Shown here: piece by piece, positions 28,423 through 32,692 of the stretch
How the letters are laid out: every line of letters begins with the position of its first letter
Numbering within the stretch: the stretch's first letter is position 1
Assembly: GCA_903902745.1 (NCBI GenBank)
Contig: CAIUWA010000003.1
Location: 1 to 64,000, forward strand
From: an uncultured Opitutia bacterium
Lineage (GTDB): Bacteria > Verrucomicrobiota > Verrucomicrobiia > Opitutales > Opitutaceae
Direction of reading: 5' to 3'
DNA length: 64,000 bases
The notes under the pieces: model-generated
Told to the model about the DNA's origin: nothing
The model's input: the letters and a program-made list of their open reading frames with translations, nothing else
Database searches by the model: none
Translations under genes and position numbers: made by a program

Positions 28423-29277
28423 ATGTCCGACTATCTTCAACTCTCCGGCAAGACCTTCCTGGTCTTCGGTGTCGCCAACCGCAAAAGCGTTGCCTGGCAC
28501 GTGGCCCAGTCCCTGGAGGGGCAGGGGGCCCGCGTGATTTACAGCGTCCGGTCGGATGAGCGCAAAAAATCGCTGGCGACACTCCTGGCCGGCAAGTCGG
28601 TTTTTCTGTGCGATGTCGAGGATGAGGGTGCGGCCCCGCGCCTGGCCGCTGCGGTCGCGGCCGCCGGCCACGCCCCGCTGCACGGCATCGTACATTCCAT
28701 CGCGTTCGCCAACTACAGCGAGGGCTTCAAGGGCTTCCACGAGACGAAGCGGAAGGACTTCCTCCAGGCCACGGCCATCTCGGCGTTTTCCCTCGTGGAG
28801 ATCGCCCGCGCCTTCAAGCCCCAGATCGCGAAGGACGCCTCGGTCGTTACCATTGGCATCTCGTCACTCCTCGTGACGCCCGACAACTACGGCTACATGG
28901 GCCCGATCAAGGCGGCGCTCGAGTCCTGCACGCGCTTTCTCGCCAAGTCCTTCAGCGCCGACACGGAGGTGCGCTTCAATGTCCTCGGCTCCGGCCCGCT
29001 CAAGACGAGCGCGTCGGCGGGCATCCCCGGCTACCTCGAAAGCTATCTCTACGCGGAAAAGCTCACGTTCCGTAAGCGCAACCTCGGCACCCAGGAAGTC
29101 GCCGATGCCGCGCTCTTCCTCCTCAGCCCGCGGAGCAGCGGCGTCAATGGCACGACCCTCGTGGTCGACGCCGGACTCGGGAGCAATTACTTCGACAAGG
29201 AAATCATCCGACTCGCAATGCGGCTGCCGGAGGCAGCCACACAAATCCCAAATCCCAAAGGGCCAAACGCCAAATGA
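28423..29277 (+). CDS. FabI-like enoyl-ACP reductase
   Basis: A 284-residue SDR-type enoyl reductase that would reduce the enoyl-ACP made by the dehydratase. It has the FabI-type cofactor segment GVANRKSVAWHVAQSLEGQG, residues 16-35. The catalytic Tyr156 and Lys163 in DNYGYMGPIKAALE have the Y-x6-K spacing and even the residue numbering of E. coli FabI. VNGTTLVVDAGLGSNYF is the usual C-terminal strand. The last ~12 residues (ATQIPNPKGPNAK) do not belong to the family: they and the stop codon are coded by the left arm of the repeat at 29239-29368. Confidence 0.9.
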   Translation: MSDYLQLSGKTFLVFGVANRKSVAWHVAQSLEGQGARVIYSVRSDERKKSLATLLAGKSVFLCDVEDEGAAPRLAAAVAAAGHAPLHGIVHSIAFANYSEGFKGFHETKRKDFLQATAISAFSLVEIARAFKPQIAKDASVVTIGISSLLVTPDNYGYMGPIKAALESCTRFLAKSFSADTEVRFNVLGSGPLKTSASAGIPGYLESYLYAEKLTFRKRNLGTQEVADAALFLLSPRSSGVNGTTLVVDAGLGSNYFDKEIIRLAMRLPEAATQIPNPKGPNAK

Positions 29278-29368
29278 ATCCACCGGCGATGACAGCAGGA
29301 CTCTTCTCCTCTTTGCTTGTTTGTGGTTTGGCACTTTGGCGTTTGGGATTTTGCCGTCCGGGATTTGC
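29239..29368. repeat. Inverted repeat overlapping the 3' end of the FabI-like gene
   Basis: The left arm contains AATCCCAAATCCCAAAGGGC and CCAAACGCCAAA. The right arm contains TTTGGCACTTTGGCGTTTGG and GATTTTG. The left arm is translated into the FabI-like C-terminus; the right arm ends a few bases before the oleA start. Confidence 0.75.
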
Positions 29369-29371
29369 CGA

Positions 29372-30406
29372 ATGAAATTCGGCGTTACATGCATTGAGTC
29401 CCTCGCCGTCGCGCTGCCGGAGGAAATCTGGACCTCCGCCGACATCGAGGAACGGCTGCGTCCGCTGTACGAGCGACTCAAGCTGCCCGCCGGCCGGCTG
29501 GAGTTGATGACGGGCATCCGCGAACGCCGCGTGTGGCCCGCCGGCACCCGGCCCTCCGAGGCCAGTGCCGCCGCCGGGCGCGCCGTGCTCGCCAAGTCCG
29601 GACTGCGGCCCGAGCAGGTCGAGCTGTTCATCCACGCCGCCGTCAGCCGCGACATGCTGGAGCCGGCCACGGCTTCCTTTGCGCACCGTTTGATCGGACT
29701 CCCGGCCACGGCGCAGATCTTCGACGTGTCGAATGCCTGCCTGGGATTTCTCAATTCGCTGACGATCGCCGCGGGCCTGATCGAGTCGGGGCAGATCCGC
29801 TGCGCGCTCGTCGCCGCTGGCGAGAACAGTCGACCGCTGGTTGAACAGACGCTGAAGACCCTGCTGGAGCGCCCGCTCAACCGGAACGAGATCAAGCCCT
29901 ACTTTGCCAACCTGACCATCGGTTCGGGGGCGGTCGCGGCTGTCGTTTGCCATCAGTCGCTCGTCAAGGGCCGCCCACACCGCCTCCTCGGAGGCGTGGC
30001 GCGCGCGGCAACCCAGCATAGCGAGCTCTGTCAGGGCGACACCCATGGCGCCGATTCCCTGGCGATGCAGACCGATTCCGAGCAATTGCTGCTGGCGGGC
30101 GTCCAGCTCGCCCGGGAGACCTGGGACGAATTCAGTGGCCCTGCCGGCTGGCCCGGAAATTCCTTCGACCGCTTCATCTGTCACCAGGTCGGGAGCGTCC
30201 ACCGGCGCAAGCTCTATGAGACCCTCGGCCTGGACGTGGCCAAGGATTTCTCGACCTTCGAAACCCTCGGCAACACCGGTTCGGTGGCGCTGCCCTCAAC
30301 CCTGGCCGCCGCCATCGACGCCGGCGCCGTGCGCGAGGGGAGCCGCATCGGTTTGCTCGGCATCGGCAGCGGACTCAACTGCCTGATGCTCGCGCTGGAA
30401 TGGTGA
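29372..30406 (+). CDS. oleA: OleA-like thiolase (KAS III superfamily)
   Basis: A 344-residue thiolase-fold enzyme. OleA joins two fatty acyl chains head-to-head by a non-decarboxylative Claisen condensation, giving a beta-ketoacid for olefin synthesis. The Cys-His-Asn triad is present: Cys123 in VSNACLGFLNSL, His271 in FICHQVGSVHRR, Asn301 in LGNTGSVALPST. Glu97 in DMLEPATASF is a candidate for OleA's catalytic Glu. The N-terminus (SADIEERLRPLYERLKLP) fits OleA better than FabH. The next gene is OleB-like, which strongly supports the OleA reading over an ordinary FabH. A FabH-like starter ketosynthase for the ACP upstream is the main alternative. Confidence 0.85.
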   Translation: MKFGVTCIESLAVALPEEIWTSADIEERLRPLYERLKLPAGRLELMTGIRERRVWPAGTRPSEASAAAGRAVLAKSGLRPEQVELFIHAAVSRDMLEPATASFAHRLIGLPATAQIFDVSNACLGFLNSLTIAAGLIESGQIRCALVAAGENSRPLVEQTLKTLLERPLNRNEIKPYFANLTIGSGAVAAVVCHQSLVKGRPHRLLGGVARAATQHSELCQGDTHGADSLAMQTDSEQLLLAGVQLARETWDEFSGPAGWPGNSFDRFICHQVGSVHRRKLYETLGLDVAKDFSTFETLGNTGSVALPSTLAAAIDAGAVREGSRIGLLGIGSGLNCLMLALEW

Positions 30407-30432
30407 AATGAAAATCCATGATTTTCATTTCA
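30404..30432. repeat. Perfect 13-bp inverted repeat between oleA and oleB
   Basis: TGAAATGAAAATC, CAT, GATTTTCATTTCA: 13-bp perfect arms with a 3-base loop, beginning on the oleA stop codon. There is no T-run after it, so it is not a standard terminator. It is followed by CCTGAGCCTGTCGAAGG, a further repeat-like word. Confidence 0.8.
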
Positions 30433-30463
30433 CCCTGAGCCTGTCGAAGGGTGCCCTCCACTG

Positions 30464-31369
30464 ATGGATTCCGCTCCTCATACCCCAATCCCCGCCTGGC
30501 TCGCCCGGCTTTACCCGTTCACCCCGCAGTCGTTCACGACCGCCGGCGGGGCAAAAATGAGCTACCTTGACGAGGGCCCGCGCTCCGATGAGGCCGTGCT
30601 CATGCTGCACGGCAATCCGACCTGGTCGTTCTACTACCGCAACCTCGTCCAGGCCGTCTCGCCGAAGCTGCGCTGCATCGTCCCCGACCACATCGGCATG
30701 GGCCTGTCGGAGAAGCCGCAGAACTACGACTACACCCTCGCCACGCGCATTGCCGACATCGAGGCGCTCGTCACCTCGCTGGGCCTGCGCCGCGTCCACC
30801 TGGTGGTGCACGACTGGGGTGGGGCGATCGGCTTCGGCTTTGCCACCCGCCACCGCGACCTGATCGGACGAATCGTGATCCTGAACACCGCGGCGTTCCT
30901 AGCTAAGCGCATCCCGCTCCGCATCCAGCTCTGCCGGATCCCGGGCCTCGGCCCGCTGATCGTGCGCGGACTCAACGGCTTCGCCGGTCCGGCCACCTGG
31001 ATGGCGATGCATTTGCGTTCGCTCACCCGGCACGAAAAGCGCGGCTATCTCTTTCCCTACGATTCCTGGGACCATCGTGTCGCCGTGGACGCCTTCGTGC
31101 GCGATATTCCGCTCCGTCGATCCCATCCGAGTTGGGCCACCTTGGACGAGATCGGCAATGACCTGGATGAATTGGCGAAACAACCCATCATGATCGTGTG
31201 GGGCGGCCGTGACTTCTGCTTCAATTACGATTTCCTCAACCGTTGGGTCAAAATTTTCCCCAACGCCGACCTGCGGCCCATGGCGCAGGCCGGGCACTAT
31301 GTGCTCGAGGATGCGGGGCCAAAGGCCATCACACCCATCGAGCAGTTTTTAATCAGTGAAATAAAATAG
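30464..31369 (+). CDS. oleB: OleB-like alpha/beta hydrolase
   Basis: A 301-residue alpha/beta-hydrolase of the haloalkane-dehalogenase-like branch. In the ole pathway OleB decarboxylates the cis-beta-lactone made by OleC to a cis-olefin. Seen here: the oxyanion segment LHGNPTWSFYYRN (49-60), nucleophile Asp117 in VVHDWGGAIG, and His278 in QAGHYVLEDAG. An Asp nucleophile rather than Ser fits OleB and dehalogenases. Directly following an OleA homologue makes OleB the better call. OleC (AMP-ligase fold) and OleD (SDR) are not found in the window; the next gene, on the opposite strand, begins 3 bases after the stop. Confidence 0.85.
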   Translation: MDSAPHTPIPAWLARLYPFTPQSFTTAGGAKMSYLDEGPRSDEAVLMLHGNPTWSFYYRNLVQAVSPKLRCIVPDHIGMGLSEKPQNYDYTLATRIADIEALVTSLGLRRVHLVVHDWGGAIGFGFATRHRDLIGRIVILNTAAFLAKRIPLRIQLCRIPGLGPLIVRGLNGFAGPATWMAMHLRSLTRHEKRGYLFPYDSWDHRVAVDAFVRDIPLRRSHPSWATLDEIGNDLDELAKQPIMIVWGGRDFCFNYDFLNRWVKIFPNADLRPMAQAGHYVLEDAGPKAITPIEQFLISEIK

Positions 31370-31371
31370 GG

Positions 31372-32340
31372 CTACATGTCCCGCACACAGCGGAAGCCGG
31401 TGTTGCCCGTGGAGCTGTCGGCGGTGTTTACCGTGCGGGCGCCGACGCGGTAGCGGTTGCAGTAAGACGCGTGGCAGAGATAGCTGCCGCCGCGAATGAC
31501 TTTGCGGTCGCCGGTGGGTGGGCCGACCGGGTCGAGGCGCGGGCCCGTAATGTGGAAATCCCGGCTGAACCAGTCGTGGCACCATTCCCAGACATTGCCG
31601 GCAATATTGAACAGCCCATAGCCGTTTGGCTTGAAGCTTTTCGACGGAGCGGTGCCGACGTGGCCATCCTCAGCGGTGTTGTGCGTGGGGAAGGTCCCTT
31701 GCCAGATGTTGCACATGTACCGGCCGCCGGGTGTGAGTTCGTCGCCCCAGGCATAGCGTTTTTGCACGAGGCCGCCGCGCGCAGCGCATTCCCATTCGGC
31801 CTCCGTCGGCAGGCGCTTGCCGGCCCAGGCCGCGTAGGCATTCGCATCGTGCCACGAGACATGGACGACGGGGTGGTCCCAGCGCTTTTTGATATTCGAG
31901 CCGGCGCCCTCGGGATGCCGCCAGGACGCGCCGTCGATTTGGCACCACCATTCGCTGCCAACCACACGCTGCGTGACTCGAGCGAGCTGCTTAGGGGTGA
32001 GGAAGAGATGAAATACGAACGACCAGCCGAATCGCTCGGCCTCGGTCTTGTAGCCTGTGGCGTTCACGAAGGCATTGAACTGCTCATTCGTCACGCAACA
32101 GGCGTCGATGTGGAAGGGCTGTAGCGTGACTGCACGCACAGGGCCTTCGCCATCTGCCGGCCAGCCGTCGGGATCATCCGCACCCATCAGGAATTCACCG
32201 CCCGGAATATGGCGCATCCCATTTAGCGAACCCGTGCGCACCCGCGCAAAAGCTGCAGCAGACGCCGCAGGGGCTGAGCCCGGACCTTCGCCGTGGCTCA
32301 CCGTATCTCGAGCCGGGGTGCAGCAGGAATCACCATGCAT
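31372..32340 (-). CDS. Formylglycine-generating enzyme (FGE/sulfatase-modifying factor) family protein with N-terminal CTPAR
   Basis: A 322-residue SUMF1/FGE-fold protein. FGEs oxidise the Cys of a CxPxR motif in sulfatases to formylglycine. Family landmarks: IPGGEFLMGADDPDGWPADG near the N-terminus; PVVHVSWHDANAYAAWAGKRLPTEAEWE (in two parts across 170-200); NGYGLFNIAGNVWEW; and the C-terminal RYRVGARTVNTADSSTGNTGFRC. The active-site region reads ASYCNRYRV: the first catalytic Cys of human FGE is kept, but the second (in CYRYRC) is Val here. Residues 1-11 end in CTPAR (Cys7-Arg11), a match to the FGE target motif within the enzyme itself. The start at 32340 is chosen because the whole 5' unit is duplicated with this ATG (32591). 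No sulfatase gene lies in the window. Confidence 0.85.
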   Translation of the reverse strand: MHGDSCCTPARDTVSHGEGPGSAPAASAAAFARVRTGSLNGMRHIPGGEFLMGADDPDGWPADGEGPVRAVTLQPFHIDACCVTNEQFNAFVNATGYKTEAERFGWSFVFHLFLTPKQLARVTQRVVGSEWWCQIDGASWRHPEGAGSNIKKRWDHPVVHVSWHDANAYAAWAGKRLPTEAEWECAARGGLVQKRYAWGDELTPGGRYMCNIWQGTFPTHNTAEDGHVGTAPSKSFKPNGYGLFNIAGNVWEWCHDWFSRDFHITGPRLDPVGPPTGDRKVIRGGSYLCHASYCNRYRVGARTVNTADSSTGNTGFRCVRDM

Positions 32341-32591
32341 CGGAGGTACGTCGATCCAATGAGCTTTAACTAATAAGGGACAGGCTAGAAACGCACCCTC
32401 ACCATCGGCAGGCCAGCCATCGGGATCGTCCGCGCCCATCAAAAACTCTCCACCCGGAATAGGGCGCATGCCTTCGAGCGAACCCGTGCGCACCCGCAAA
32501 AAAGTCTGCGCCGTCGCACCGGGGGATGACCCCGCTTTTTTCCCTGGTTCAGAGGATCACGTGCCGGGGTGCAGCAGGAATCGCCATGCAT
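32341..32591 (-). pseudogene. Tandem duplicate of the FGE 5' region, 1-nt frameshift
   Basis: A diverged direct duplicate of the FGE leader and first ~75 codons, period 251 bases. It begins with the same SCCTPAR motif (start at 32591) and later repeats RVRTGSLEGMRPIPGGEFLM. The frame breaks at an A6 tract (plus-strand T at 32536-32541). With seven A the unit would be 252 bases (84 codons) and would read through in frame into the downstream FGE, giving a 406-residue protein with two N-terminal CTPAR units. Upstream sequence (GGCCTGTCCCTTAT and GCCTGTCCCTTAT) is also duplicated. Confidence 0.75.
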
Positions 32592-32692
32592 CGGAAGTTA
32601 AGACGCGCCAACGCGGTTTCAGGTGATAAGGGACAGGCCAGAATCAGGCAGTACTTTACTTAACATAATAAACATTGTGCGTTGTAGACAGG

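Follow-up and report, generated by a model that had tools for sequence, protein, structure and literature searches.

A leader carrying two adjacent cysteines ahead of the catalytic core is a conserved part of prokaryotic SUMF1-type FGEs, and is restricted to the clade that also holds the human and the laboratory FGEs. Cys-Cys was found upstream of the core in 222 of the 230 FGE frames examined, the gene described here included. This gene lies in a window of 64,000 nucleotides (the whole stretch of DNA that was analysed) from an uncultured Opitutia bacterium. No description of the Cys-pair leader of prokaryotic FGEs was found in the open-licence literature, as covered by titles, the starts of abstracts and best matches.

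The gene occupies 31372..32340 on the minus strand and encodes 322 amino acids followed by a stop codon. Translation of 32340..31372 gave a protein beginning with MHGDSCCTPARD, and the SCCTPAR that a sequence-only reading had pointed out at residues 5-11 as a perfect CxPxR was present. The leader, S5-C6-C7-T8-P9-A10-R11 (32308..32328, minus strand), is followed by a linker of residues 12-40 (32221..32307, minus strand), which was variable according to column entropies and of low confidence according to pLDDT, and by the catalytic core of residues 41-322 (31375..32220, minus strand). PF03781 matched residues 41-320 with 284.5 bits against a cut-off of 23.3, and the scores for NCBIfam EgtB, GldK and PvdO were far under their cut-offs. 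C289 and C294 (SYLCHASYC; 31459..31476, minus strand) aligned with the Cu(I)-binding Cys pairs of the Streptomyces coelicolor, Thermomonospora curvata and human FGEs in the PDB, which were also the closest solved relatives by sequence. An AF2 model built from 80 rows had a mean pLDDT of 91.6; its best Foldseek matches were FGEs, with query-normalised TM values of 0.86 (S. coelicolor FGE) and about 0.80 (human FGE). The protein also grouped with the characterised FGEs (clade SH-aLRT 99) in a tree that contains no EgtB, PvdO or GldK. It is an aerobic, copper-type FGE of the SUMF1 clade and is predicted to convert the Cys of sulfatases. The block means of pLDDT for residues 1-30 were 49, 53 and 57, so the leader appears floppy or unplaced in the model, and docking of the leader is not supported by it.

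The first relatives were collected with six seeds, one of which was the leader; the best 80 of 475 were kept, and these aligned mostly from residues 1-6. Because the leader was among these seeds, a core-only query (residues 41-322) was used for the phylum surveys, which covered 288 genomes of Verrucomicrobiota, 296 of Actinomycetota, 299 of Bacillota, 199 of Acidobacteriota and 301 of Chloroflexota. A core match at E 1e-40 was present in 46, 29, 4, 28 and 47 of these genomes, respectively. Among the complete FGEs with the copper pair and at least 50% identity in the best 30 loci per search, the leader was present in 23/23 from Verrucomicrobiota, 12/13 from Actinomycetota, 29/29 from Chloroflexota and 14/17 from Acidobacteriota, the other three being exported-looking; by the same criteria it was present in 4/4 from the loci returned for Bacillota. 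The sample was not random: each survey search covers at most its 30 strongest matches, and weaker ones lie outside, for example at another six places in Chloroflexota with 50-62% identity. In four surveys, moreover, the centre genome had first come from the seed search that included the leader. The similar leaders in other bacterial FGE-like proteins that the sequence-only reading had mentioned were borne out by the 222 frames, and the absence from close orthologues that it had considered is not what was found.

A core query against a plasmid collection gave 190 records, of which 40 were listed and 10 fetched. The leader was present in 9/9 of the first fetched loci, four from Halobacteria and five from Alphaproteobacteria, and also in the tenth, on a Streptomyces plasmid. 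Sampling around the laboratory enzymes gave the leader in 29/29 distinct complete frames among relatives of the T. curvata enzyme and in 26/27 among those of the S. coelicolor enzyme, the 27th (L320) being frameshifted.

The 230 frames are those with a core identity of at least 50%, the copper pair and a complete 5' side; incomplete cores, cores lacking the copper pair or below 50% identity, and 5' ends cut by a contig end (e.g., L242) were excluded. The search stretch was widened after five Chloroflexota rows showed the pair further upstream, and the controls were rerun with the wide stretch; the narrow-stretch counts of 163/175 and 220/230 were too low because these five rows were missed. 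In the wide stretch, other-frame readings of the same DNA had Cys-Cys in only 18/460 cases against 222/230 in the FGE frame, and the leader is therefore not due to chance. The earlier narrow-stretch other-frame controls gave 5/175 and 4/175, so a chance Cys-Cys in an open frame was ruled out by both sets. Shuffling the same protein stretches by composition gave Cys-Cys on average in 20.4/175.

Eight of the 230 frames were without Cys-Cys. Two of them have CxC (L014, L015), L320 has the leader in a shifted frame, three are exported-looking (L210, L212, L213) and two are without it (L156, L174); "exported" here is a guess from hydrophobicity and not a signal-peptide prediction. More distant copper-pair FGEs (below 50% identity), many of them exported and others belonging to an actinobacterial group, had the leader in 0/35 cases. 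Among 23 FGE-domain frames lacking a complete copper pair, CC was present in two, the stop-broken L196 and L021, where it lies inside a hydrophobic segment. In a 141-row tree, which was a quick one, dereplicated at 80%, midpoint-rooted and with many weak inner forks, a clade of 109 contained all 100 CC rows together with the human, S. coelicolor and T. curvata FGEs, and the other 32 rows had no CC leader; leader labels were taken from the narrow stretch, and that of the human enzyme from the literature. The exported-looking L210 and L212 fell in a leaderless clade, and L156 and L174 sit inside the leader clade yet are without the leader. A group of 13 actinobacterial copper-pair FGEs was leaderless, 12 of them without an obvious export segment.

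Within the leader, CCxP was found in 197/222 cases, CCxPxR in 103/222 and the full sulfatase signature in 3/222. In 100 dereplicated leaders, which had been chosen for CC, Pro was present in 84, Arg in 56 and either Arg or Lys in 67, far above the 8.9% Pro and 9.8% Arg of the linker background. All four surveyed Bacillota leaders were without the Pro. The rows of two alignments (A1 and A2) were chosen for CC and the copper pair, and the invariance of C6, C7, C289 and C294 in them follows from this choice. The nearest start codon was 2-13 codons ahead of the Cys pair in 145/163 frames. The distance from the pair to the core is 23-65 residues in 216/222 and up to 143 residues in the other six. 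Five of these six are from Chloroflexota (L231, L235, L238, L244 and L252) and contain in-frame repeats or other long insertions, and CC was kept in all five despite the stretched linkers. Several of these linkers have swollen by in-frame repeats (APSPLVGEGWGEG and similar), with the pair at the far end. The codons of CC vary synonymously among the relatives of T. curvata. What the leaders have in common is a tethered Cys pair, of which the perfect FGE target is a local form.

These frequencies bear on two roles that start from the likeness to a target. In the first, the FGE would turn its own Cys7 into formylglycine. The window protein does contain CxPxR (C7-T-P-A-R11), which even fits the sulfatase signature quoted in a passage of PMC7279497, as do three of the 222 leaders. 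However, CCxPxR is present in fewer than half of the leaders, Arg and sometimes Pro not being kept, and both cysteines are kept where one would suffice. Ten members were at first counted as having no CC, of which two later proved to have it further upstream; a lone-Cys CxPxR leader occurred in none of the ten. Self-modification, which the sequence-only reading had put forward, is therefore unlikely as a general role and was rejected as such because of the unkept Arg and the kept Cys pair; it may still occur in this one protein, but overall its probability seems minimal. In the second, the leader would lie in its own or a neighbour's groove as a pseudo-substrate and contribute a third thiolate to Cu(I), shielding it until a sulfatase displaces the leader. 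The resemblance of the consensus CC-x-P-x-R to the target and the enrichment of Pro and Arg over the linkers would fit such a cap, but the full motif is confined to the 103 leaders given above, the Pro is absent from the Bacillota leaders, the first Cys would be superfluous, and the AF2 confidence is low. We consider such a cap quite unlikely.

The leader appears to have been overlooked in the bacterial model enzymes. The core of T. curvata FGE (PDB 5NXL, 6S07) is about 64% identical to that of the window protein. In a 5.6-Mb genome with a core 100% identical to T. curvata FGE, the frame continues above the crystallised part as TTG-ADGAQERPACCAPSLTTGAPGRAVPSFDFD, with PACCAPS upstream of the core. 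The TTG, which is upstream of the pair, was kept in 5/5 of the closest T. curvata relatives, with TGGAGC ahead of it. Ahead of the match of Met42 the crystallised chains have only 16 residues (5NXL) and 20 residues (6S07), and the pair lies 33 residues before it. The S. coelicolor FGE (PDB 2Q17, 6MUJ) is 63-64% identical and has the copper Cys pair, and (M/V)T..HRPCC or a motif much like it is present in 9/9 orthologues with 86-97% identity. The 6MUJ chain has 11 residues before the aligned start, too few for a Cys pair positioned as in these nine; the pair would lie 13-14 residues before it if placed as in L296. These comparisons strongly suggest that the crystallised forms of both bacterial model enzymes are missing the leader because the gene starts were annotated too late; for S. 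coelicolor the start is deduced from the nine orthologues and not from its own genome. Among the plasmid loci, 2/10 public annotations (those of L256 and L324) start the FGE after the Cys pair.

The human enzyme also has two cysteines ahead of its core, in an extension that is likewise absent from the human FGE structures. According to passages of PMC7279497, the core comprises residues 73-374, the N-terminal extension is unique to higher eukaryotes, changing C50 and C52 to Ala abolishes sulfatase activation in cells, and the need for these two residues is usually explained by ERp44 binding. Passages of PMC4505483 report that in vitro the human core equalled the extended form in activity, and also mention an earlier report that the extension is needed in vitro. 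In the same source, S. coelicolor FGE produced in E. coli contained about 0.01 Cu per enzyme and gained activity more than tenfold after addition of Cu, the human core without the extension, made in insect cells, was purified with 0.34 Cu, and full-length human FGE was prone to aggregation when concentrated. The Kd of FGE for Cu(I) is about 1e-17 M; the metal sits in a bis-thiolate site, where the substrate Cys becomes the third thiolate on Cu; in the apo-enzyme the active-site pair forms a disulfide under oxidising conditions and has to be reduced for Cu(I) binding (passages of PMC12123546).

We infer from these facts that the leader may bind Cu(I), dock and transfer the metal. It would be a conserved working part of the SUMF1-type FGE, a tethered thiol arm that loads Cu(I), and we hold this to be about as probable as its opposite. 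The leader Cys pair would take Cu(I) as a bis-thiolate from the scarce cytosolic pool, and the loaded pair would swing on the linker to the substrate groove of the core, where docking could be helped in many lineages by the substrate-like P-x-R. Cu(I) might then pass to Cys289 and Cys294 by way of a three-thiolate step like the known enzyme-Cu-substrate complex. Such a transfer through the geometry of substrate binding would explain the substrate-like Pro and Arg in the leader. An arm that loads Cu in the cell and is dispensable with added Cu in the tube would fit the human mutant, the activity of the human core in vitro, and the low Cu content of S. coelicolor FGE and its gain in activity with Cu. 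In the genome of the window, the loaded FGE would then convert two Cys-type sulfatases. A metal-binding role for Cys-Cys was already among the options of the sequence-only reading, and would be in line with this arm.

The main facts against the copper arm are the leaderless actinobacterial FGEs and the 0.34 Cu of the human core. Since 12 leaderless copper-pair enzymes show no obvious segment for export, the leader cannot be required for copper loading in the cytosol in every case. Once copper is added, enzymes without a leader are active in vitro. The CxC spacing of the human enzyme, the ERp44 explanation of Cys50/Cys52, the earlier report of a need for the human extension in vitro and the leaderless L156 and L174 inside the clade also speak against such an arm.

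Alternatively, the pair may act as a thiol relay or docking site. Its partner, a thioredoxin-like protein or the sulfatase, would be engaged through mixed disulfides or electron exchange, and the active-site pair would so be kept reduced for the binding of copper. A vicinal Cys pair suits redox exchange. Against such a relay, most leader-bearing enzymes have no export segment, ERp44 is not known from bacteria, and the relay would leave unexplained why Pro and Arg are favoured behind the pair. The contact of ERp44 with Cys50/Cys52 of the human enzyme (passages of PMC7279497), which PDI contacts as well, and the active-site disulfide that must be reduced before Cu(I) can bind (passages of PMC12123546) argue for it; overall we regard the relay as unlikely. 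The two soft thiols on a floppy arm might also join FGE molecules into dimers or oligomers by sharing a metal ion or a disulfide between two leaders, and the aggregation of the full-length human enzyme (passages of PMC4505483) is consistent with such a bridge, but the linker length varies freely. We regard the bridge as very improbable.

Returning to the copper arm, its widest form would be that the CC or CxC leader is a built-in Cu(I) delivery arm from archaea to human that docks by substrate mimicry, that the need for Cys50/Cys52 is one of copper loading, and that this was missed because the starts of the laboratory bacterial FGEs lie after the leader. We offer this wide form tentatively, as a possibility that we doubt more than we believe.

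The sequence-only reading had also described the unit as duplicated, with a diverged second start region 251 bases upstream that again carries SCCTPAR. The second start is real, with an ATG at 32591, MHGDSCCTPAR and its SCCTPAR at 32559..32579 (minus strand), but a working duplicated unit was rejected in favour of a frameshifted 5' relic. By comparison with the gene, the copy (32395..32591, minus strand) consists of no more than leader, linker and the first part of the core. Leader and core start are in different frames, and the leader frame stops after 50 codons; the core start, RVRTGSLEGMRPIPGGEFLMGADDPDGWPADGEG, is the match of residues 33-66, where the copy ends. The GCCTGTCCCTTAT ahead of the FGE gene (32373..32385, minus strand) is repeated ahead of the relic at 32626-32638 (13/13 identical by BLASTN). 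The 11 leader codons of relic and gene differ at three bases, each of them a synonymous change. In the 34 codons that correspond to residues 33-66 there are 18 base changes, of which 15 are synonymous and the remaining three fall in two amino-acid-changing codons. These mostly synonymous differences indicate that selection at the protein level acted on both copies as they diverged, until one of them was lost. The upstream copy is thus the 5' remnant of a second FGE gene that was formerly functional, and the two SCCTPAR are the leaders of two genes, one of them dead. The core start of the relic is in frame with the live gene, and a 375-codon open frame with a TTG start (32499-31372, minus strand) spans both. 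No second FGE copy was found in L007/L036, which seem to be a single genome, or in L037 and L038, these being the nearest relatives. In Bacillota, L163, L164 and L196 are additional FGE copies that are fragmentary or interrupted by stops, and L196 has a CC leader. Second copies of FGE may often decay.

That no sulfatase is nearby, as had been remarked from the sequence, agrees with the finding that none of the four PF00884 matches of the genome is on the contig of the window. Two Cys-type sulfatases (CAPSR and CNPSR) are encoded elsewhere in the genome, and sulfatases were present at 34/60 FGE loci of at least 8 kb. Next to the FGE gene, 28979-31369 (plus strand) encodes first a FabH-like protein (438.9 bits with NCBIfam NF006720, against 285) and then a hydrolase similar to haloalkane dehalogenases that scored below cut-offs, an order that resembles the OleA-OleB olefin pathway. 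Other FGE-domain proteins are encoded on contigs C15 and C47 of the genome (L002-L005), of which L002 has neither the copper Cys pair nor the leader.

FGE is a copper enzyme behind human multiple sulfatase deficiency and, through the aldehyde tag, a tool of biotechnology. If a matching leader is general in bacteria and archaea, two questions that the literature passages cited here do not answer would become testable in simple hosts: how FGE acquires its copper inside the cell, and what makes the N-terminal cysteines of the human enzyme necessary there when the core is active in vitro. The usual preparations of S. coelicolor and T. curvata FGE would then be truncated forms, and the statement in a passage of PMC7279497 that the extension exists only in higher eukaryotes would need correction.

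Compared with known systems, the leader of the window protein fits C-x-P-x-R as the CxPxR sulfatases that are substrates of FGE do, but its Cys is doubled and its Arg and Pro are not kept across the family. The metal site of copper metallochaperones is a CxxC motif, and the leader has CC, or CxC in two rows. Its enzyme belongs to the same clade as human FGE, and like the human extension it places two cysteines before the core on an arm outside the catalytic part, here C6 and C7 on a linker of low pLDDT reaching to residue 40. The human enzyme differs in having CxC, in being an ER enzyme and in contacting ERp44, whereas the window FGE has CC, and CxC without CC was present only in L014 and L015. 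No paper that prints the human peptide, in the form searched for, was found in the open-licence literature. The prokaryotic leader is not filed as a member of the human type, but it may be the counterpart of the Cys50/Cys52 extension.
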